Below are positions 17,284-28,154 of a DNA stretch of 64,000 nt, one piece after another. How positions within the stretch are numbered: the first letter of the stretch is position 1; every line of letters starts with the position of its first letter. The notes below the pieces were generated by a model. It was not told the DNA's origin and did no database searches. It saw only the letters and a list, made by a program, of their open reading frames with translations. The stretch covers positions 620,001-684,000 of the forward strand of contig NZ_JACHGU010000001.1 of assembly GCF_014202435.1 (NCBI RefSeq), in the 5' to 3' direction. The position numbers and the translations under genes were made by a program. Source of the DNA: Pseudoxanthomonas broegbernensis (GTDB lineage Bacteria; Pseudomonadota; Gammaproteobacteria; Xanthomonadales; Xanthomonadaceae).

Positions 17284-17323
17284 CGGAAGCGCAGGCATGA
17301 TGGCCGAACCGCAGGGAGGGGGG

Positions 17324-20300
17324 ATGCCGGCCACGACACGCGGCCGGCGCGTCCGGTGCGCGATGCGATGGAGGGGATGGCCGCCGGTGTGCGCGGCGGC
17401 GCTGCTGTCGATGGCGCTGCTGGCGTCTTCGGCGATGGCCGCCGAGGGAAACGCCGTCGCGCCGAAGGCGGCGCCGGCCGCGGCCGATGGCGCCGCCACC
17501 GCCCCGCCGCCGCTGCGCGACTACGCCATCGACGCCTGGAGTTCGCGCAACGGGCTCCCGCACAATTCGCTGCGCGACATGGCCCAGACCCCGGATGGCT
17601 ACCTGTGGTTCGCCACCTGGGAAGGCGTGGTCCGCTACAACGGCGTGGCCTTCACCGTGTTCGACCGCGGCAGCGAGCCGGGGCTGCGCGACAACGGCGT
17701 GGGGGCGCTGTACGTCGACCCGCAGGGACGGCTGTGGCTGAGCGACTCGCGCGGCAACCTGGCGTGGCTGGCCGGCAACGGCCGCTGGGAATTCGTCGAG
17801 CGCACGCCGCAGTGGCCGCAGGCGCTGATCCACGACCTGGCGATGGATGGCCGCGGACGGCTGTGGCTGCTGTTCGAGGGCCATGGCCTGGGCTGCCTGC
17901 ATCCGGACGGGCGCTTCGACTACCTGGCCGCGCCGCCGCAGGTGCCGTTGCGCGCCAGCTTCCCGCGCATGGCGATCGACGCCGGCGACCGCATCTGGAT
18001 CGGCACCCTCGACGGCCTGGTGATGCGCGACGACGCGGGCCGCTGGCATCGCTTCGGCGCCGATGCCGGCCTGCCGTCGGGGCTGGTGTGGCCCTACGTG
18101 GCGCCGGACGGCACGCTGTGGGTGGCCGCCGAAGGACAGGTATTCCGCCACCACGGGAACGGCTTCGCCCGCGTGCACGCGCTGCCCGGCGCCGGCCATT
18201 TCACCTCGATGCTGCAGGACCGCCACGGTGCACTGTGGCTGGGCACCGAGAACCGCGGCGTGGCCCGCATCGGCGTGCACGGCGTCGAATGGCTGGCGCC
18301 CGGCCCGGTACTGCCGCGCGGCCGCATCGCCAGCCTGCTGGAGGACGCGGAAGGCAGCGTGTGGGTGGGCGCCAACGGTGGCCTGTTCCGCCTGCGCGAG
18401 ACCCTCTTCAGCAGTTGGACTCGCCGCGACGGGCTCGGCGGCGACTACGTGCGCGCGGTACTCGAGGACCGCGATGGCACGCTCTGGGTGGGCGGCGGCG
18501 GCGGCCTGGACCGGCAGGTGCCCGGCGGCGGCTTCCGGCCGGTGCCGCTGCCTGGCGCCGGCGGGGAAACGGCATCGGTGCTGAGCCTGGCCCAGGGGGC
18601 CGACGGCGACCTGTGGGTGGGCACCTTCGCCGATGGCGTCTACCGCCTGCGCGATGGCGTCCTGCTGCGCCGCTACGGCCAGGCCGACGGCGTGCCCAGC
18701 GGGCACGTGCGCGCGCTGGCGGCCGACCGCGGCGGCGCGGTGTGGGTCGGGACCCGGCGCGGGGTGGTGCGCATCGATGCGGCGGGCGTGCATCCGCCGC
18801 CGCCGGTGCCGGACCTGCCGGACGGATTGGTGACCGCGCTGGCGGTCATCGGCGAGGACCTGTGGATCGGCTCGGTGGCCGGCGCCAGCGTGCTGCGCGG
18901 CGGCACCCGGGTGGAGCGCCTGGACCTGGACGCGGCCGGCGGCGGCGCGCGCACGGTGTTCGGCTTCCAGCAGGTGGACGGCCGGACCTGGATCGCCACC
19001 GACCGCGGCCTGTTCCGCCATCGCGACGGCGGCCTGGCCCGCATCGGCCTGGAGCAGGGGCTGCCGGTGGACGCGGTGTTCCAACTGGTGCCCGACCGCG
19101 AGGGCGCGGCCTGGATCACCAGCAACCGCGGCGTGCTGCGGGTGCCGATGGCGGCGCTGCGGGAACATGCCGACGGCACCGCGCGGCGGCCGCTGGCGGT
19201 GCAGCGCTATACCGAGATCGACGGGCTGCCCAGCGCGCAGGGCAACGGCAGCTCGGCGCCGGCGGCGATCCTGCGCCGCGACGGTACGCTGTGGGTGGCC
19301 ACCGCCGCGGGCATCGCCAGCGCCGATCCCGCGCGCCTGCGCCGCTACCTCGACCGGCCGCCGCCGCCGGCGGTGATCGAGTCGGTGCAGTTGGACGGAC
19401 AGGCACTGGACTGGAGGAGCCGCGATTCGCTGCCCGGAGGCGCGCGGGTGACCGTGGCCTATGCGGGCCTGAGCTATCTGCTGCCCGAGCGCATCGGCTA
19501 CCGCACCCGCCTGCACGGCCTGGACGAGGACTGGATCGAGCGCGGCACCCAGCGTGCCGTGGAGTTCATCGGCCTGCCGCCGGGCGAGTACACCCTGGAG
19601 GTGGCCGCCGCGCATCCGGAGGGCGGCTGGAGCGCGCAGCCGGCGCGCTGGACGTTCGGCGTGCGGCCGCTGTGGTGGCAGCGCACCGACGTGCGCGCCG
19701 CGGCGCTGCTGGCCGTGCTGCTGGGGCTGTTCGCCCTGGTGCAGCGCTACCGCGCCAGCAACCGGCGGCTGGCGCGGCTGGTGGACGAGCGCACCGACGA
19801 CCTGCGGCACCAGGCCAGCCGCCTGGAAGCGGCCGATCGCGAGAAGCAGGAACTGCTGGACCGCCTGAGCGCCCACGCCGAGCTGCTGGAGCGGCACGCC
19901 TACCAGGATGCGTTGACCGGCCTCCCGAACCGGCGCGCGTTCGAGGAGGTGGCCACGCGCCAGCTCGCGCAGGCCAGCGCCGGTGGCGCGCCGCTGGCGC
20001 TGGCGATCCTGGACATCGACCACTTCAAGCGCATCAACGACGAGCGCTCGCACGCCGTGGGCGACGAGGTGCTGCGCGACTTCGCCCGCGTGATCCGCCA
20101 GGCCTGCCGGCCCGAGGATTTCCTCGCCCGCACCGGCGGGGAGGAGTTCGTGCTGCTGCTGCCGGGCGTGGAGCTGCCGCGCGCGCGCGAGGTGTGCGAG
20201 CGGGTCCGCCGCGCGGTCGAGCGCTCCGGCCTGGAGCGGACCGCGCAGGGCCTGGCGGTGACGGTCAGCGTGGGCGTGGCCGAGCGTGCCGGCGCCCACG

Positions 20301-20392
20301 GCCTGGACGTGCTGATGCAGGCCGCCGACCAGGCGCTCTACCGCGCCAAGCGGCTGGGCCGCAACCGGGTGCAGGCGGCCGGCGAGGCCTGA
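17324..20392 (+). CDS. periplasmic propeller sensor diguanylate cyclase (Reg_prop, Y_Y_Y, GGDEF)
   Basis: About 1022 residues. A signal peptide (about 15-40, ending AMA) is followed by repeated beta-propeller motifs (LWFATWEG, RLWLSDSRG, LWVGTF, VWVGTRRG and similar) to about 690, a Y_Y_Y immunoglobulin-like segment, one membrane helix near 785-810, a coiled coil and a C-terminal GGDEF domain. The active loop reads GGEEF (about 938-942), a functional variant, and RPED nine residues before it matches the RxxD inhibitory site, so c-di-GMP synthesis with product feedback is predicted. ATG ATG at 17297 is an alternative start; the chosen one has GGGAGG before it. Ligand unknown; such sensors often detect sugars. 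Confidence 0.9.
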   Translation: MPATTRGRRVRCAMRWRGWPPVCAAALLSMALLASSAMAAEGNAVAPKAAPAAADGAATAPPPLRDYAIDAWSSRNGLPHNSLRDMAQTPDGYLWFATWEGVVRYNGVAFTVFDRGSEPGLRDNGVGALYVDPQGRLWLSDSRGNLAWLAGNGRWEFVERTPQWPQALIHDLAMDGRGRLWLLFEGHGLGCLHPDGRFDYLAAPPQVPLRASFPRMAIDAGDRIWIGTLDGLVMRDDAGRWHRFGADAGLPSGLVWPYVAPDGTLWVAAEGQVFRHHGNGFARVHALPGAGHFTSMLQDRHGALWLGTENRGVARIGVHGVEWLAPGPVLPRGRIASLLEDAEGSVWVGANGGLFRLRETLFSSWTRRDGLGGDYVRAVLEDRDGTLWVGGGGGLDRQVPGGGFRPVPLPGAGGETASVLSLAQGADGDLWVGTFADGVYRLRDGVLLRRYGQADGVPSGHVRALAADRGGAVWVGTRRGVVRIDAAGVHPPPPVPDLPDGLVTALAVIGEDLWIGSVAGASVLRGGTRVERLDLDAAGGGARTVFGFQQVDGRTWIATDRGLFRHRDGGLARIGLEQGLPVDAVFQLVPDREGAAWITSNRGVLRVPMAALREHADGTARRPLAVQRYTEIDGLPSAQGNGSSAPAAILRRDGTLWVATAAGIASADPARLRRYLDRPPPPAVIESVQLDGQALDWRSRDSLPGGARVTVAYAGLSYLLPERIGYRTRLHGLDEDWIERGTQRAVEFIGLPPGEYTLEVAAAHPEGGWSAQPARWTFGVRPLWWQRTDVRAAALLAVLLGLFALVQRYRASNRRLARLVDERTDDLRHQASRLEAADREKQELLDRLSAHAELLERHAYQDALTGLPNRRAFEEVATRQLAQASAGGAPLALAILDIDHFKRINDERSHAVGDEVLRDFARVIRQACRPEDFLARTGGEEFVLLLPGVELPRAREVCERVRRAVERSGLERTAQGLAVTVSVGVAERAGAHGLDVLMQAADQALYRAKRLGRNRVQAAGEA

Positions 20393-21163: not shown

Positions 21164-21913
21164 CTACCGGGGCGGGGCGGTGCCCAGCACGGTGCCTTCC
21201 GCGCGCAGGCGTTCGAGCATCGCCGCGCCCTGGGCCAGGAAGCCGTCGTCGGCCGGCACGCCCGCCTCCGCGGCCAGCGCGCGTACCTGCTCGCCGCCGC
21301 GCAGGCCGCCTTCGCCCAGGCGTTCCAGCAGGCGATGGACCAGCGGCGAGATCGCGGCGAACCGCGCCTGGCCCTGGGCATCGCGATGGACCAGCAGCAG
21401 CGTCGGCGCCTCCGGCGGGTGTTCGGGGCGGTGCCCCGGGCCGATCGTATGCACGGGCCAGCGGTAGGCCAGCGCGCGCGCGCACGGCGCGACCACGGGC
21501 ACGCCGTGCATCAGGTCGCCGTGCGGCGCGTGCGCCGGCGTCGGCGTGTCGTCGATCCGCACCGCCAGCTCGATCCACTCGTAGTGCGCCAGCTCGGCCA
21601 GCCATGGCGGGTCGCCGGGGGCGCCGCCGCCTTCGTCGAGGAAGCGGACGAACTCGCGCGGGAGTTCCGGGAACAGCGGCGTGCGGCTGCGATGGCCGGC
21701 GTGGAAGCGGCGGACCAGCGCGGTCCAGGCGTCCTCGCCCAGGGTGCGGCGGATCACCGGGAAGCCGCCGCCGAGCAGGCCGGCGACGCCGTTGAAGAAC
21801 AGCTCGCGGTAGACCGCCATGCGCCGCGGTTCGATGCCCGGCGGCGGCGGGTTGGCCTGCGGGTCGCGCAGGTGCGCGGCGAAGGCGAACTGCTGCGCGC
21901 GCAGGTCAGGCAT
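21164..21913 (-). CDS. HvfC-like DUF2063 partner protein
   Basis: A 249-residue protein of the DUF2063 'putative DNA-binding domain' family, which almost always accompanies DUF692 enzymes. The N-terminal DUF2063 helical region includes [20 protein letters not shown] (about 30-49) and the following [10 protein letters not shown]; the C-terminal half is a mixed domain. In characterised systems this partner assists peptide recognition by the MNIO enzyme rather than binding DNA. Its first codons overlap the end of the DUF692 gene by 8 bp, so it is translationally coupled. Confidence 0.85.
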
Positions 21914-22757
21914 GCGTGGCGCCCCGGGCGCGGGGCGCGGTCGCGGCGTCGTGCTGCAGCGCGCGGATGCGCGCGACCTCGGCCAGCAGGTCGGCCAGCG
22001 GCGGCAGGTTGAAGTCGCGTTCCAGCAGGGTGGGGCGCACGCCGTGCACGCGGTAGGCATGGGCCAGCAGCGCCCACACGTCGTCCTTCACCGGCGCGCC
22101 GTGGGTGTCGATCTTCAGGTCCTCGGCCTGGTCGTAGTGCCCGGCCACGTGATAGGAGGCGACCCGCCGCGAGGGCATGCGCTCCAGGAACGCACGGGCG
22201 TCGTAGCCGTGGTTGATGGCGTTGACGTAGACGTTGTTCACGTCCAGCAGCAGGTCGCAGTCGGCCTCCTCCAGCACCGCGAGCACGAAGTCGGCCTCGT
22301 CCATCGCCTGCCAGGGCGCGGCGTAGTAGGAGACGTTCTCCACCGCGATGCGCCGTCCCAGCACGTCCTGCGCACGGGCCACGCGCGCGGCGACGTGGCG
22401 CACCGCCTCCTCGGTGAAGGGGATCGGCATCAGGTCGTAGAGGTGGCCATCGTCGGCGCAGTAGCTCAGGTGCTCGCTGTACAGCGCCACCCGGTGGCGG
22501 TCGAGGAAGCGGCGGGTCTTGTCCAGGAAGCCCTCGTCCAGCGGCTCGACCCCGCCCAGCGACAGCGACAGCCCGTGGCAGGTCAGCGGATGCCGGGACG
22601 AGAGTTCGTCCAGCGCCTCGCCCAGGCGGCCGCCGACGCCGATCCAGTTGTCGGGCGCGCACTCGAGGAAATCGAAGGCGCCGGCCGGCGCGACGCGCAA
22701 TGCGTCGAGCATCGCGCGCCGCAGGCCCAGCCCGGCGCAGGCGTCGGGCAGGCTCAT
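21906..22757 (-). CDS. HvfB-like MNIO (DUF692) peptide-modifying iron oxidase
   Basis: A 283-residue TIM-barrel enzyme of the multinuclear non-heme iron-dependent oxidative (MNIO, formerly DUF692) family; relatives install oxazolone-thioamide or related groups on Cys of precursor peptides. Candidate metal ligands are all present: H61, E95-H96 (SEHLSY), E140-N141 (VENVSYY), D172/N174 ([10 protein letters not shown]), H183, H203 and H207 (SYHVAGHYD), D217 and E246. Length is normal. It follows the precursor gene by 91 bp containing a stem-loop and overlaps the DUF2063 gene. Confidence 0.9.
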
Positions 22758-22797
22758 CGGCAGCCGGAAGCCGATGCCGGCCGGGCGACGGAGCCGA

Positions 22798-22841
22798 TCC
22801 CTCGACCGCCCGCACCTCGATGCGCGGGCTCTTGCGAGGGA
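22798..22841. promoter_or_regulatory. two-tiered stem-loop between precursor and MNIO genes
   Basis: An outer 7-bp stem (TCCCTCG with CGAGGGA) encloses an inner 6-bp stem (GCCCGC with GCGGGC) and a 10-nt loop, with small internal bulges. There is no T-run, so full termination is unlikely. In the hvfA-hvfB intercistronic gap, such a structure would be suited to partial termination or 3'-end stabilisation of the precursor mRNA, keeping precursor above enzyme. That role is inference. Confidence 0.6.
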
Positions 22842-22848
22842 CCCGCGC

Positions 22849-23268
22849 CTACGCCATGCCGCCGCACTTGCCCTCGCCGCACTTGCCTTCCCCGCACTTG
22901 CCTTCCCCGGCCTTGTCCACGGCGCCGTGCGCGCCGCAGCCGCCCTCCGGGGTGCCGGCGTGGTAGGCCTTCATTTCCTCGGTGTCGATGTAGCCGTCGC
23001 CGTTGGCGTCGGCCTGGGCGAAGCGGTCGGCCTCGGCCGGCCAGGCGGCGGCGAACTCCTGCGGCGAGACGCGCCCGTCACCGTCGGTGTCGGGGATGGA
23101 CACGCCGCACATGCCCTCGCCGCAGCGGCCTTCCACGGCCTTGCCCGCCTCGCCGGCGGCGAGCATGTAGCCCTGGGCCAGCGGCTGCATGGCGAAGGCC
23201 GATCCGGCCAGGGTCAGGCCGGCCAGGGCGCCGCCGAGGGCGAGGGCGGCGGATTTCTGCTTGGACAT
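22849..23268 (-). CDS. secreted EF-hand RiPP precursor with EGKCG repeats (HvfA/bufferin-like)
   Basis: A 139-residue precursor. Residues 1-26 are a Sec signal peptide ending SAFA. Then come EGRCG and EGMCG (46-55), an EF-hand loop at 60-71 ([12 protein letters not shown]), a second at 87-98 ([12 protein letters not shown]), a lone Cys at 111, and three head-to-tail EGKCG units at 122-136. All calcium-ligand positions of both EF loops are filled. EGKCG-type Cys is the site modified by MNIO enzymes in the Haemophilus hvf system, giving copper-binding peptides. Six Cys in total. An EF-hand fused to the modifiable repeats suggests a calcium-folded periplasmic metal buffer; this is inference. Confidence 0.85.
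22861..22905 (-). repeat. three 15-bp units encoding EGKCG
   Basis: Three adjacent 15-bp units at the 3' end of the precursor gene encode EGKCG each, the second and third nearly identical in DNA. Tandem identity suggests recent unit duplication and a route for copy-number change. Two diverged copies ([10 protein letters not shown]) lie before the EF-hands. Confidence 0.85.
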
Positions 23269-23411
23269 GGTGTTCTCCGGAAGAAGGGCGGGCACGCTTT
23301 CCCGGCACGGGGCGTGCCATGCCGGGCCGGGGGGAGGGCCAGAGTCTACCCCGCGCCGGCCGGTCTCCGTCCATGCCCGGTTGCCATACCCGACCGTGTC
23401 CACGTCCTGCG

Positions 23412-23452: not shown

Positions 23453-24163
23453 TCAGGCCGGGCCGGCGGTGCTGGTGTCGTCGCGCTTGTCGCGCGGCGG
23501 CAGCGGGCGATCGCCGTGCAGCAGGAACCACACGTTCTCGGCGATGTTGGTGGCGTGGTCGCCGATCCGCTCCAGGTTCTTGGCCATGAACAGCAGGTGC
23601 GTGCACGGGGTGATGCTGCGCGGGTCCTCCATCATGTAGGTCAGCAGCTCGCGGAACAGCGCAGTGTACTGGCGGTCGAGCTGGGCATCGTTCTCGCGGA
23701 CCCGCAGGGCCAGTTCGTCGTCGTCCTCGCTGTAGGCGCGCAGCGCCTGCCGGACCTGGCCGGCGGCCAGCAGGCCCAGCGCGCGCAGCCCGGCGACGTG
23801 CGGCATGGGCGGGGAGGCGTTGAGCGCGATCGAGCGCTTGGCCACGTTGGAGGCGTAGTCGCCGATGCGCTCGATGTCCGACGGGATGCGCAGGCCCGCC
23901 AGGATCTCGCGCAGGTCGCGCGCCATCGGGCCGCGCAGGGCCAGGCGCATCACGTCCTGGCTGATGCGCCGCTCGGCCGCGTCGATGGAGTCGTCGTTGG
24001 CCACGATCCGGCGCGCGGCGCTGTCGTCGCGCCGGTCGACCACGTCCAGCGCCGCCTCGAGCTGGGCCACCGCGGTCTGGCCCATGCGCACGATCTCCTC
24101 GACCAGACGGCGCTGCTCCTCGTCGTAGCTCTTGACGATGTGTTCGTGGGGCTGGGTAGTCAT
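23453..24163 (-). CDS. phoU: PhoU, phosphate uptake regulator
   Basis: A 236-residue two-repeat helical bundle that links the Pst transporter to PhoR signalling and represses the Pho regulon when phosphate is ample. Both metal/phosphate-binding helices are recognisable: PSDIERIGDYASNVAKR (about 77-93) and AKNLERIGDHATNIAEN (about 190-206). It ends the pst operon, 100 bp after pstB. The N-terminus MTTQPHEHIVKSYDEE fixes the start. Confidence 0.96.
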   Translation of the reverse strand: MTTQPHEHIVKSYDEEQRRLVEEIVRMGQTAVAQLEAALDVVDRRDDSAARRIVANDDSIDAAERRISQDVMRLALRGPMARDLREILAGLRIPSDIERIGDYASNVAKRSIALNASPPMPHVAGLRALGLLAAGQVRQALRAYSEDDDELALRVRENDAQLDRQYTALFRELLTYMMEDPRSITPCTHLLFMAKNLERIGDHATNIAENVWFLLHGDRPLPPRDKRDDTSTAGPA

Positions 24164-24263
24164 GGCGATTCCGGGTGTCGAAAGGGAGTGGGCCGCCGTC
24201 CCTGGCGGGGCGCGGCGGGCGGTGGACGGCCGGGCCCGGTCGCCGCCGGGCATGCGCCCGGCC

Positions 24264-25127
24264 TCACCCGAACCGCCCGGTGATGTAGTCCTCGGTCTGG
24301 CGCTTGGAGGGGCTGGAGAAGATGACCTCGGTGCGGTCGTGCTCGATCAGGTCGCCCAGGTACATGAAGGCGGTGTAGTCGCTCACGCGCGCGGCCTGCT
24401 GCATGTTGTGGGTGACGATGACGATGGTGTATTCGGACTTCAGCTCCTCGATCAACTGCTCGATGCGGCTGGTGGAGATCGGGTCCAGCGCCGAGGTCGG
24501 TTCGTCCAGCAGCAGCACGTCCGGCCGCAGGGCCACGGCGCGGGCGATGCACAGGCGCTGCTGCTGCCCGCCGGACAGGCCCAGCGCGCTCTGGCCCAGC
24601 TTGTCCTTCACCTCGTCCCACAGCGCGCCCTGGCGCAGGGCCTGCTCGACCCGCTCGTCCATCCGCGGGCGCGAGAGCTTCTCGTGGTGGCGGATGCCGT
24701 AGGCCACGTTTTCGTAGATCGTCATCGGGAACGGCACCGGCTTCTGGAACACCATGCCGACCTTGCTGCGCAGCCGGTTGATCGGATACCTGGGCGAGAG
24801 GATGTCCTCGCCGTCCAGTAGTACCTCGCCGCGCGCCTCCAGCTTCGGGTACAGCGCGTAGATGCGGTTGAAGACGCGCAGCAGGGTCGACTTGCCGCAG
24901 CCGGAGGGGCCGATCAGCGCGGTGACCCGCTTCTCCGGCATGTCCAGGTCGATGCTCTTCAGTGCGTGGAAGCGGTCGTAGTGGAAGTCCAGGCCGCGGG
25001 CGGCCAGCTTGACCGGCGCGGCGGCGGACGCGGCGCGGGAAGGGGACACCGAGATGCGCTGCATCTCGGGCGCGCGCGCGGCGGAGGGAAGCTCGTTCAT
25101 GGCCAGGTTCCGGGAAGGGTCAGTCAT
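24264..25127 (-). CDS. pstB: PstB, phosphate ABC transporter ATPase
   Basis: A 287-residue ABC ATPase. Walker [10 protein letters not shown] (about 73-81), Q-loop FQKPVPFPM, signature LSGGQQQR, Walker [12 protein letters not shown] and the switch His in VTHNMQQA are all present. The phosphate-type [10 protein letters not shown] segment is specific to PstB. The first about 35 residues are a variable head; ATG at 25100 is an alternative start. The 5' end overlaps pstA by 8 bp. Confidence 0.96.
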
Positions 25128-25998
25128 GGGTGATCCTGTTGCGCAGGAGCAGGGCGCGCGCGGTCAGGCTGACCAGCAGCACGAACACGGTCAGGACCAG
25201 GGCGCCGGCCCAGGCCAGCACCTGCCACGATTCGTAGGGGCTGCCGGCGAACTGGTACATCACCACCGGCACCGAGGCCATCGGCTGGAACACGTTGCCG
25301 TTCCAGTACTGGTTGCCGAAGGCGGTGAACAGCAGCGGCGCGGTCTCGCCGGAGATGCGCGCCAGCGCCAGCAGGATGCCGGTGAGGATGCCGGCGCTGG
25401 CGCTGCGGTACAGCACCTGCACGGTCACCTTCCATTGCGGCACGCCCAGCGACAGCGCCGCCTCGCGCATCTGCACCGGCACCAGGCGCAGCATCTCGTC
25501 GGTGGTGCGCACCACCACCGGCAGCACGATGAAGGCCAGCGCCAGCGCGCCGGCGAAGGCGGAGAAGCTGCCGCCGGTCTGCATCACGTACAGGGTGTAG
25601 ACGAACAGGCCCAGGACGATGGACGGGGCCGACAGCAGGATGTCGTTGACGAAGCGCACCACGGTGCCGGCCTTGCGCGCGTTGCCGTACTCGGCCAGCC
25701 AGGTGCCCGCCGCGATGCCCAGCGGCGTGCCGATGGCGATCGCCAGCGCGCACATCACCGCGCTGCCGAAGAAGGCGTTGGCCAGGCCGCCTTCCTGCAG
25801 CGGCGGCGGGGTCATCCGGGTGAACAGGTTCCAGTCGATGCCGGCGATGCCGCGGGCGGCCAGGGTCCACAGGATCCAGCCCAGGAAGAACAGCCCGAAC
25901 AGCGCGGTGGCGCAGGACAGCAGCAGGGCGGCGACGTTGACGATGCGGCGGCGCGCGTACAGGCGCCCGGGGGAGGCGCGGAAGAGGGAGACGGACAT
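25120..25998 (-). CDS. pstA: PstA, phosphate ABC permease
   Basis: A 292-residue inner-membrane permease with six predicted membrane segments, beginning with [20 protein letters not shown] (about 21-40). The ABC coupling loop [19 protein letters not shown] (about 190-208) is clear. Start ATG overlaps the pstC stop codon by one base (TGATG), a typical translational-coupling arrangement, which fixes it. Confidence 0.95.
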
Positions 25999-26960
25999 CA
26001 GTTGCCCTCCTTGCGCGCCAGGCTCATCAGCATCAGCCGGGCGATGGCCAGGACCACGAAGGTGACGATGAACAGCACGAAGCCCAGCAGCAGCAGTGCC
26101 GAGCGGTAGGTCTCGGTGGCCTCGCCGAAGTCGTTGGCGATCAGCGCGGCGATGGTGGTGCCCGGCTCCAGCAGCGAGGGCGACAGGCGCACCGCGTTGC
26201 CGATCACGAAGGTCACCGCCATGGTCTCGCCCAGGGCGCGGCCCAGGCCCAGGAAGATGCCGCCGATCACCGCCGAGCGGGTGTAGGGCAGGACGATGTC
26301 CCAGCTCACCTCCCACTTGGTGGAGCCCAGCGCGTAGGCCGATTCCTTCAGCCGGGTGGGCACGGTGAGGAACACCTCGCGCATCACCGAGGAAATGAAC
26401 GGCACCACCATGATCGCCAGCACGAAGCCGGCGGTGAGCATGCCGATGCCCAGCGGCGGGCCCTGGAACACCGGCCCGACCAGTGGCAGGGTGCCGGCGT
26501 GGTCGTTGAGCCAGGGGGTGACGTACTCGGTCATCACCGGCACCAGCACGAACAGGCCCCACATGCCGTAGATGATCGACGGGATGCCGGCCAGCAGCTC
26601 GATCGCCGTGCCGACCGGGCCGCGCAGCCAGCGCGGCGCGACCTCGGTCAGGAAGAAGGCGATGCCGAAGCTGACCGGCACCGCGATCAGCATCGCGATC
26701 AGCGCGGTGACCAGGGTGCCGTAGATCGGCGCCAGCGCCCCGAACTTGTTCTCCACCGGGTTCCATTCGGCCGAGTAGAAGAAGCTTAGCCCCTGCGCCT
26801 CCAGCGCGTGGCGCCCGCCCCACAGCATCGACAGCGCCGCGCCGGCCAGGGCCACCATCACGAACGCCACGCACCCGATCAGCGCATAGCGGAACAGGCG
26901 GTCGGCGCGGGCGTCGCGCCCGCCGGCGGCGGGGAGTGCATCGAGGGCGGCGGTGTTCAT
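25998..26960 (-). CDS. pstC: PstC, phosphate ABC permease
   Basis: A 320-residue permease partner of PstA. Six membrane segments are visible, with the periplasmic WNPVENKFGALAPIYGTL motif (about 66-83) and coupling loop ESAYALGSTKWEVSWDIVLP (about 211-230), both typical of PstC. It lies 7 bp after the first pstS stop codon, in the same operon. Confidence 0.95.
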   Translation of the reverse strand: MNTAALDALPAAGGRDARADRLFRYALIGCVAFVMVALAGAALSMLWGGRHALEAQGLSFFYSAEWNPVENKFGALAPIYGTLVTALIAMLIAVPVSFGIAFFLTEVAPRWLRGPVGTAIELLAGIPSIIYGMWGLFVLVPVMTEYVTPWLNDHAGTLPLVGPVFQGPPLGIGMLTAGFVLAIMVVPFISSVMREVFLTVPTRLKESAYALGSTKWEVSWDIVLPYTRSAVIGGIFLGLGRALGETMAVTFVIGNAVRLSPSLLEPGTTIAALIANDFGEATETYRSALLLLGFVLFIVTFVVLAIARLMLMSLARKEGN

Positions 26961-26967
26961 CCGATGG

Positions 26968-28026
26968 TCACTCGAACTCGGCCGCCCAGTACGCCTCGAT
27001 CTGCCGCACCAGCTCCGGCGGCAGCGGCACGTAGTGCAGTTCCTGCGCCTGCGCCTGGCCCCGCTCGAACGCCCACTCGAAGAACGCCAGGGTCGCCCGG
27101 CTGCGGGCGGCGTCCTTCGGCCGCTTGGGCATCAGCATGAAGTTGGTGGCGGTGATCGGCCAGGCATCCTGGCCCGGCGCATCGGTGATCACCAGGTCGA
27201 AGTCGCCGGCGCCGGCCCAGTCGGCGCTGGCCGCGGCGGCGGCGAAGCTTTCCGCGTTCGGCTGCACCCACTGCCCGGCCGCATTGCGCATCGACGCATA
27301 GGGCATGCCGTTCTGCAGCGCGTAGGCCAGCTCGACGTAGCCGATGCCGCCCTTGATCTGCTTCACGTACGCGGCCACGCCCTCGTTGCCCTTGCCGCCC
27401 ACGCCGCCGGGCCACTGCAGCGAGGTGCCCTCGCCGATCCCCCGCTTCCACTCGGGGCTGACCTTGGACAGGTAATTGCTGAAGTTGAAAGTGGTGCCCG
27501 AGCCGTCGGAGCGGTGGACCACGGTGATCTTTTCCGCCGGCAGGGCCAGGCCGGGGTTGGCGGCGGCGATGGCCGGGTCGTCCCAGGCGGCGACCTTGCC
27601 CAGGAAGATGTCGGCCAGCAACGGGCCGGTCAGGCGCAGCCGGCCCGGCTCCATGCCCGGCAGGTTGAACACCGGCACCACCCCGCCGATGGCCGAGGGG
27701 AACTGGCCCAGGCCGGCGGCGGCCAGCTCGTCGCTGGGCAGCGGCTTGTCGGAGGAGCCGAAGTCCACGGTGCCGGCCTTGATCTGGGCGATGCCGCCGC
27801 CCGAGCCGATGGACTGGTAGTTGATCTTGTTGCCGGTGGCGGCGTGGTAGTCGGCCGACCACTTGGACACCAGCGGGTAGATGAAGGAGGCGCCCGCGCC
27901 GGAGATTTCGGCGACGGCCGGAGCGCCGGCGGCGGATGCCTCGCCGGCGTTGTCGGCGGGCTTGCACGCGGCCAGGGCCACGGCGGCCAGCGACAGGACG
28001 AGGAGGTGGACCGTTGAGGGTTTCAT
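26968..28026 (-). CDS. pstS: PstS, phosphate-binding lipoprotein
   Basis: A 352-residue substrate-binding protein. The signal peptide ends in a lipobox (LAAC, Cys at 20), so this copy is lipid-anchored. Phosphate-ligand motifs are present: GAGASFIYP (about 43-51), YQSIGSGGGIAQIKAG (about 69-84), FGSSDKPL and HRSDGSGTTFNF. It is the promoter-proximal gene of pstSCAB-phoU and has a Pho box 62 bp upstream. It shares most of its sequence with the next pstS, a clear local duplicate. Confidence 0.95.
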   Translation of the reverse strand: MKPSTVHLLVLSLAAVALAACKPADNAGEASAAGAPAVAEISGAGASFIYPLVSKWSADYHAATGNKINYQSIGSGGGIAQIKAGTVDFGSSDKPLPSDELAAAGLGQFPSAIGGVVPVFNLPGMEPGRLRLTGPLLADIFLGKVAAWDDPAIAAANPGLALPAEKITVVHRSDGSGTTFNFSNYLSKVSPEWKRGIGEGTSLQWPGGVGGKGNEGVAAYVKQIKGGIGYVELAYALQNGMPYASMRNAAGQWVQPNAESFAAAAASADWAGAGDFDLVITDAPGQDAWPITATNFMLMPKRPKDAARSRATLAFFEWAFERGQAQAQELHYVPLPPELVRQIEAYWAAEFE

Positions 28027-28087
28027 GGGCTCATGGCGCCGTGCGGGGCCGGGCTGTCCGGCGGTGCGTACATGGAATGATGTTTTT

Positions 28088-28105
28088 GTTACATCCGTAT
28101 GACGG
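28088..28105 (-). promoter_or_regulatory. Pho box of the pstSCAB-phoU operon
   Basis: On the minus strand CCGTCAT-ACGG-ATGTAAC: two 7-bp half-sites with 4-bp spacing, matching the PhoB direct-repeat layout. A relaxed second half-site suggests moderate affinity. It ends 62 bp before the pstS start. Confidence 0.75.
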
Positions 28106-28154
28106 CGCTCGCCGGCGACGGCGGCCGGCCGGTGGCCGCCGCGCATCGGTGCCG

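Follow-up and report, generated by a model that had tools for sequence, protein, structure and literature searches.

An MNIO-associated peptide of Pseudoxanthomonas broegbernensis carries an EF-hand pair between two EGKCG-type cysteine arms

In a 64,000-nucleotide stretch of the Pseudoxanthomonas broegbernensis genome (hereafter the window), three genes on the minus strand run in the order precursor, MNIO enzyme, HvfC-type partner, from the precursor ATG at 23268 to the hvfC stop at 21164 (Table 1). The locus raises the question of what a small peptide that joins EF-hands to EGKCG repeats does, and of how far it departs from systems already described. A reading from sequence alone (the sequence-only reading) had proposed a secreted, EF-hand-containing peptide that is modified by the MNIO enzyme; family membership and synteny support such a product well.

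Table 1. Features of the precursor operon, in window coordinates
Feature	Position	Strand	Basis
Precursor, 139 aa, EF-hand and EGKCG, EfhP/HvfA-like RiPP precursor	22849..23268	-	ORF and translation; Pfam/NCBIfam matches; orthologues
Sec signal-like segment, residues 1-26, ending between AFA and MQ	23191..23268	-	Read from sequence; conserved in relatives
N-terminal Cys arm (Cys49, Cys54)	23104..23133	-	Sequence; Cys54 6 residues before loop 1
EF-hand loop 1, residues 60-71	23056..23091	-	Pfam and sequence
EF-hand loop 2, residues 87-98	22975..23010	-	Pfam and sequence
Sixth motif EGGCG (Cys111), between EF-hand 2 and the triple repeat	22933..22947	-	Translation
C-terminal Cys arm, (EGKCG)x3 (Cys125, 130, 135)	22861..22905	-	Translation, NCBIfam
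HvfB-family MNIO enzyme, 283 aa	21906..22757	-	PF05114, NF003818, 3BWW, metal-site residues
HvfC-type partner (DUF2063 and NGO1945_C), 249 aa	21164..21913	-	PF09836, PF22106, NF050145
Precursor-enzyme gap, 91 nt, foldable into a long hairpin	22758..22848	-	RNA fold
TAGACT, -10-like element, ~75 bp upstream of the precursor ATG	23343..23348	-	Kept in aligned relatives

Translation bears out the elements first noted in the precursor, namely a Sec signal, two full EF-hand loops, three EGKCG units and two diverged upstream copies. The earlier inventory of cysteine motifs was correct in what it listed and overlooked a sixth motif, EGGCG; several relatives carry EGTCG, EGMCG, EGNCG, EGSCG or EGKCG at the equivalent site. 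The six cysteines (49, 54, 111, 125, 130 and 135) are each followed by glycine, so that all read xCG. Four of them, including those of all exact EGKCG units, lie C-terminal to the EF-hands, and two lie on the N-terminal side. Pfam EF-hand_5 matches the precursor with 44.9 bits (E 5.9e-12, cut-off 25.9), and the segment at the end of the signal is conserved in an alignment of relatives. Orthologues occur in loci L002-L009 and L015 of our collection and in many others, and the position and order of the open reading frame are kept across many genomes, which argues that it is not a chance reading frame.

Both companion genes pass curated cut-offs, confirming the DUF692/MNIO enzyme and DUF2063 partner that had been recognized beside the precursor. 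The MNIO enzyme matches PF05114 with 343.7 bits and scores 429.8 bits against NCBIfam HvfB (NF003818, cut-off 360); its nearest solved structure is PDB 3BWW (E 6e-69). Residues of the iron-site type are present (H61, H96, E140, D172, N175, H203, D217, H219 and E246). N175, D242 and H244 are essential in HvfB (PMC13419390), and the window enzyme has counterparts of all three together with the iron-ligand positions, as matched by motif and by alignment to 3BWW rather than by structure. The partner scores 284.7 bits against NF050145 (cut-off 142) and also matches PF09836 and PF22106; PDB 3DEE is its nearest solved structure (E 1.5e-5), and its ATG lies inside the end of the MNIO gene in an 8-nt overlap. 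With a precursor of EGKCG-type repeats, an HvfB-type MNIO and an HvfC/PME1 (DUF2063 plus RRE) partner, the locus has the composition of an hvfABC/captophorin biosynthetic gene cluster. The genes, their motifs and their family membership are thus established here, as are the conserved order and geometry described below.

Among characterized systems, HvfABC/oxazolin and fontiphorin (captophorins; PMC13097082, PMC13419390) share with the window locus the EGKCG substrate, the HvfB-type MNIO and the HvfC/PME1 partner. Descriptions of HvfA and FonA include no EF-hands, in contrast to the window precursor. The precursor belongs to the HvfA family as defined by KCGExKCG_twice (NF050137, 28.4 bits, cut-off 19.5), but it is not HvfA itself, since it misses the cut-off of the HvfA equivalog NF050188 (25.9 against 95 bits). 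Bufferins (Buf1/DUF2282 and Buf2) have in common with it an MNIO, a DUF2063 protein and a Sec-exported cysteine peptide. We rejected a bufferin proper: DUF2282 is absent from the precursor, where Pfam finds EF-hand families only, and the MNIO scores too low for BufB (271 bits, cut-off 310). A weak NCBIfam match of XopAW lies far under its cut-off.

The fusion of EF-hands to EGKCG units is not wholly new. Our literature search for EF-hands together with MNIO returned PMC12452194 alone, in which chimaeras of EGKCG and EF-hand_5 beside MNIO genes were described in 2025. The accessible text of that report places the EF-hands after a short EGKCG domain, joined to its C-terminus, and, citing EfhP, suggests roles in copper and Ca2+ homeostasis. 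Its Buf_EGKCG|EF-hand_5 type shares with the window locus a signal or hydrophobic N-terminus, one or more EGKCG units, two EF-hand_5 domains, and an MNIO gene and a DUF2063 gene adjoining downstream. The window precursor differs in that it adds a C-terminal EGKCG arm while its N-terminal copies have diverged; it does not fit the published pattern of EGKCG units only N-terminal of the EF-hands. The sequence-only reading had allowed that the EF-hand form might already be described. This holds for the chimaera, while the split layout is absent from the main text, which (supplements aside, and as far as that text is accessible) describes neither an EF-hand pair flanked on each side by a cysteine arm, nor a fixed distance from cysteine to loop, nor the frequency of the form in a family. 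It is these three features that appear to be new here.

The studied example of the same gene trio is EfhP-PA4106-PA4105 of Pseudomonas aeruginosa (PMC4053335), which likewise combines an EF-hand pair and EGKCG precursor with an MNIO and a DUF2063 protein in one operon. In the Pseudomonas homologues that we surveyed, the starts of the two loops are spaced by 27 residues, as in the window precursor. Their cysteine units stand only before the EF-hands, with the last cysteine 9 residues before loop 1 rather than the 6 of the window precursor, and they end in a tail without EGKCG where the window precursor has its second cysteine arm.

To place the split layout we combined 40 named loci with the precursor loci detected in 395 genomes from the window's own family and with some 60 additional regions taken from these, which together yielded 114 non-redundant EGKCG precursors. 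Cysteine units stand both before and after the EF-hand pair in 77 of the 114, only before it in 34, and 3 have no EF-hands; these fractions hold for our sample and not for the frequency of EF-hands among all EGKCG precursors, because the search profile contained EF-hands, the regular expression demands EF-hand ligands, and genomes were drawn evenly and not randomly. An MNIO gene begins less than 300 bp downstream of the precursor in 76 of the 77 split cases. The family-wide survey that had been proposed thus finds EF-hand-EGKCG precursors widespread just upstream of MNIO genes. The claim of a distinct architecture holds in part: EF-hands do lie between two cysteine clusters, an arrangement that is frequent in this sample and not unique to the locus.

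The geometry around the EF-hands is narrowly kept. In 97 of 108 precursors the two loops begin 27 residues apart, and the last N-terminal-side cysteine precedes loop 1 by 6 residues in 69/75 split precursors, as Cys54 does in the window, and by 9 in 33/33 N-only precursors. Both layouts conserve the ligand positions of the EF-hands, in part because the regular expression requires them. Outside the columns so imposed, split precursors have a phenylalanine directly after loop 1 (66/67) and another 4 residues before loop 2 (67/67). A shared C-terminal sequence ending is common among them. Homologues differ widely in how many EGKCG units they carry. In one locus (L003:5001-5946, equivalent to L078 and L102), a tandem pair of split-type precursors stands ahead of a single MNIO gene; the first of the pair has extra cysteines (DHC, HAC) and has lost one, with GKGG replacing GKCG.

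The split form comes chiefly from the window's own family, and N-only precursors come from Pseudomonas, Lysobacter, Bordetella and Cupriavidus. When 143 genomes drawn from across the class were searched, the profile also matched in four further families, and cysteine units flank EF-hand-like loops in all of these matches; an MNIO gene is adjacent in two of them, and in the other two the MNIO genes all lie in other parts of the genome. Two split-type precursors (L164:1489-1905 and L166:1480-1893) have no MNIO gene within 1.5 kb, with MNIO genes far off in the same genomes, and may be modified in trans. In a tree of the MNIO enzymes the two layouts are interleaved. Lysobacter-like split precursors L108 and L110 fall among the N-only branches and share the N-only context, with cysteine 9 residues before loop 1, which argues for more than one gain or loss of the C-terminal arm. 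These two, and also L107, L109 and L115, combine N-only spacing with C-terminal cysteine-arm sequence. To judge from the sequences, the arm of L108/L110-type precursors was apparently gained separately.

What might the product do? We think it probable, by analogy with characterized relatives, that this is an hvfABC/efhP-type RiPP operon whose product is a captophorin-type periplasmic copper ligand with a Ca2+-binding core. The precursor would be made in the cytosol, where HvfC, as the RRE partner, would present the flexible cysteine arms to HvfB. The MNIO could then oxidize up to six E-G-x-C-G cysteines to 5-thiooxazoles, for a loss of about 4 Da each and up to 24 Da in total. The modified precursor would be exported by Sec and its signal removed, the EF-hand pair would fold around Ca2+ in the periplasm, and the two modified arms that flank the pair would bind a soft metal, most likely Cu(I). 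The 5-thiooxazole chemistry, the binding of copper and of calcium, and the cellular role in this scheme are all taken over from relatives. Calcium binding is a measured property of the relative EfhP (PMC9132961), and copper binding, in the accessible text of PMC13097082, of other EGKCG products.

Substrate data fit this scheme in part. As far as the accessible text of PMC13097082 goes, FonBC, HvfBC and NgoBC convert EGKCG cysteines to 5-thiooxazole and the products bind Cu; FonBC tolerates Lys, Ala, Arg or Thr before the cysteine, requires a small residue after it, and modifies a double repeat. Given that tolerance and that requirement, the EGRCG and EGKCG units of the window precursor are plausible substrates. 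EGMCG and EGGCG lie outside the variants whose tolerance this text covers, a point against a copper peptide. In its favour are the xCG form of all six cysteines, the HvfB and HvfC assignments with the metal-site and essential residues of the MNIO, the adjoining MNIO genes of nearly all split precursors (76/77), and the model described below, in which a confident EF-hand core is predicted between disordered arms. Against it stand the direction of work on EfhP, which has not been on copper, and the flanks of the operon, the pst-phoU genes and an RNase-T exonuclease gene, where no copper-responsive regulator is adjacent.

The work on EfhP invites another explanation, that the peptide is primarily a periplasmic Ca2+ sensor or regulator, which would alter its conformation and its binding of partners when it takes up Ca2+, and whose modified cysteines serve signalling or iron sensing instead of copper buffering. 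EfhP, predicted to be periplasmic, binds Ca2+ selectively with a Kd of 13.7 uM and becomes more hydrophobic on doing so (PMC9132961). It controls Ca2+-dependent virulence and iron-uptake genes, and the studies point to a role in the regulation of calcium, virulence and iron and not to one in copper (PMC11559002). The conserved ligand positions noted above, partly imposed by our search, would suit a sensor as well. However, the recombinant EfhP was a truncated protein from E. coli, presumably made without its MNIO, so the modified cysteine part lay outside that work; and the wide variation in EGKCG unit number is expected of a metal-loading tail and not of a precise sensor. We consider a primary role as sensor unlikely.

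Alternatively, the peptide may bind a metal other than copper, for example iron, gold or zinc, or a lanthanide at the EF-hands. The metal specificity of EGKCG peptides is unsettled in the accessible text of PMC13097082, and the EF-hands bear a weak likeness to lanmodulin; with 19.2 bits against a cut-off of 135 (NF053806), this match is far too low for membership, and the characterized EGKCG products bind Cu. Lanmodulin EF-loops have proline at position 2. The window precursor has T and A there, which speaks against lanthanides. A target metal other than copper seems to us very unlikely.

Within the copper-ligand reading, the part played by the EF-hands can be approached from the predicted structure. 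An AlphaFold2 model of the precursor, built with 17 sequences, gives a core of about residues 61-100 at pLDDT 86-92 (overall pLDDT 57.5, pTM 0.41). The cysteine arms are predicted to be disordered (pLDDT <50), and the model yields neither a distance nor a contact between them. In Foldseek the matches are paired EF-hands, among them polcalcin and lobes of calmodulin, with a best E of 4.6e-3. Dockerin-like EF-hands, which the short spacing had suggested, were rejected, as the matches were to classic EF-hand pairs with no dockerin among the best 50.

The EF-hand pair could be a folding and stability module only, locked by Ca2+ after export and shielding the tails from proteolysis or aggregation, with neither sensing nor an effect on copper affinity. 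Cu-loaded EGKCG peptides aggregate, according to the accessible text of PMC13097082, a tendency that a soluble core would counter; calcium in the periplasm is said to mirror the level outside the cell or to lie above it (PMC9132961); and disordered arms around a compact core, as predicted, are consistent with such a role. A loose tether would not need a distance between cysteine and loop as fixed as the 6 or 9 residues observed, but shared ancestry could account for it. We regard this as a reasonable possibility that falls somewhat short of probable. Another reading, in which the Ca2+-folded pair would unite both thiooxazole arms for joint binding of Cu(I) as a calcium-gated clasp, we hold to be quite unlikely.

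The surroundings of the operon are conserved. Upstream, on the same strand, lies phoU of the pst cluster, and downstream an RNase-T-type exonuclease gene; the same arrangement of phoU, precursor, MNIO, HvfC and exonuclease recurs in L002, L003, L005-L009 and L015, from relatives named Pseudoxanthomonas, Xanthomonas and Luteimonas and one Lysobacterales MAG (L004 ends within the MNIO gene, and phoU of L015 is about 4 kb upstream). Best-segment identities in these relatives are 52-71% for the precursor, 78-84% for the MNIO and 60-75% for HvfC. The phoU/pst genes directly upstream occupy 23456-28146 of the window, and close relatives retain them. BfmR is a strong activator of the efhP operon in P. 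aeruginosa and, at other genes, reportedly acts together with PhoB and CzcR (PMC8025907). Positions 17297-20392, convergent with the exonuclease gene, encode a 1031-aa protein that by eye looks like a beta-propeller sensor ending in a GGDEF diguanylate cyclase domain.

Two non-coding elements accompany the trio. Aligned close relatives retain the TAGACT element ahead of the precursor ATG, with TAGAAT in L005. The gap between precursor and MNIO folds with -54.7 kcal/mol (z -1.99), and many relatives, though not all, have hairpins there; the hairpin may be an expression step-down or a REP-like element. A pattern search for it as a repeat within the window found no excess over chance. Sequence resembling CCCTCGC...AGCCCGC occurs at the equivalent gap position in L074 and L079.

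The usual DoxX-like fourth gene had been reported missing. Its absence is confirmed in the cluster and in the whole assembly (99.99% complete), where no DoxX match was found, but it is not unusual: of the 62 genomes in which a precursor was located, 6, all of one genus, have DoxX within 4 kb, and the other 56 have none at that distance. DoxX is therefore not obligatory, and its lack, as the ordinary state in this branch, carries no special meaning and is ruled out as a special trait.

The split precursor is a natural construct in which putatively modified metal-binding arms flank a core predicted to fold with Ca2+, so that a link between calcium and copper is directly titratable. If the calcium-gated clasp were true, periplasmic copper capture and release would be coupled to calcium. 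Because the Ca2+ data come from a truncated, presumably unmodified protein, the natural EfhP product may differ in its behaviour. The locus thereby joins two literatures that barely meet, one treating EfhP as a Pseudomonas calcium sensor, the other treating MNIO-modified EGKCG peptides as copper ligands.
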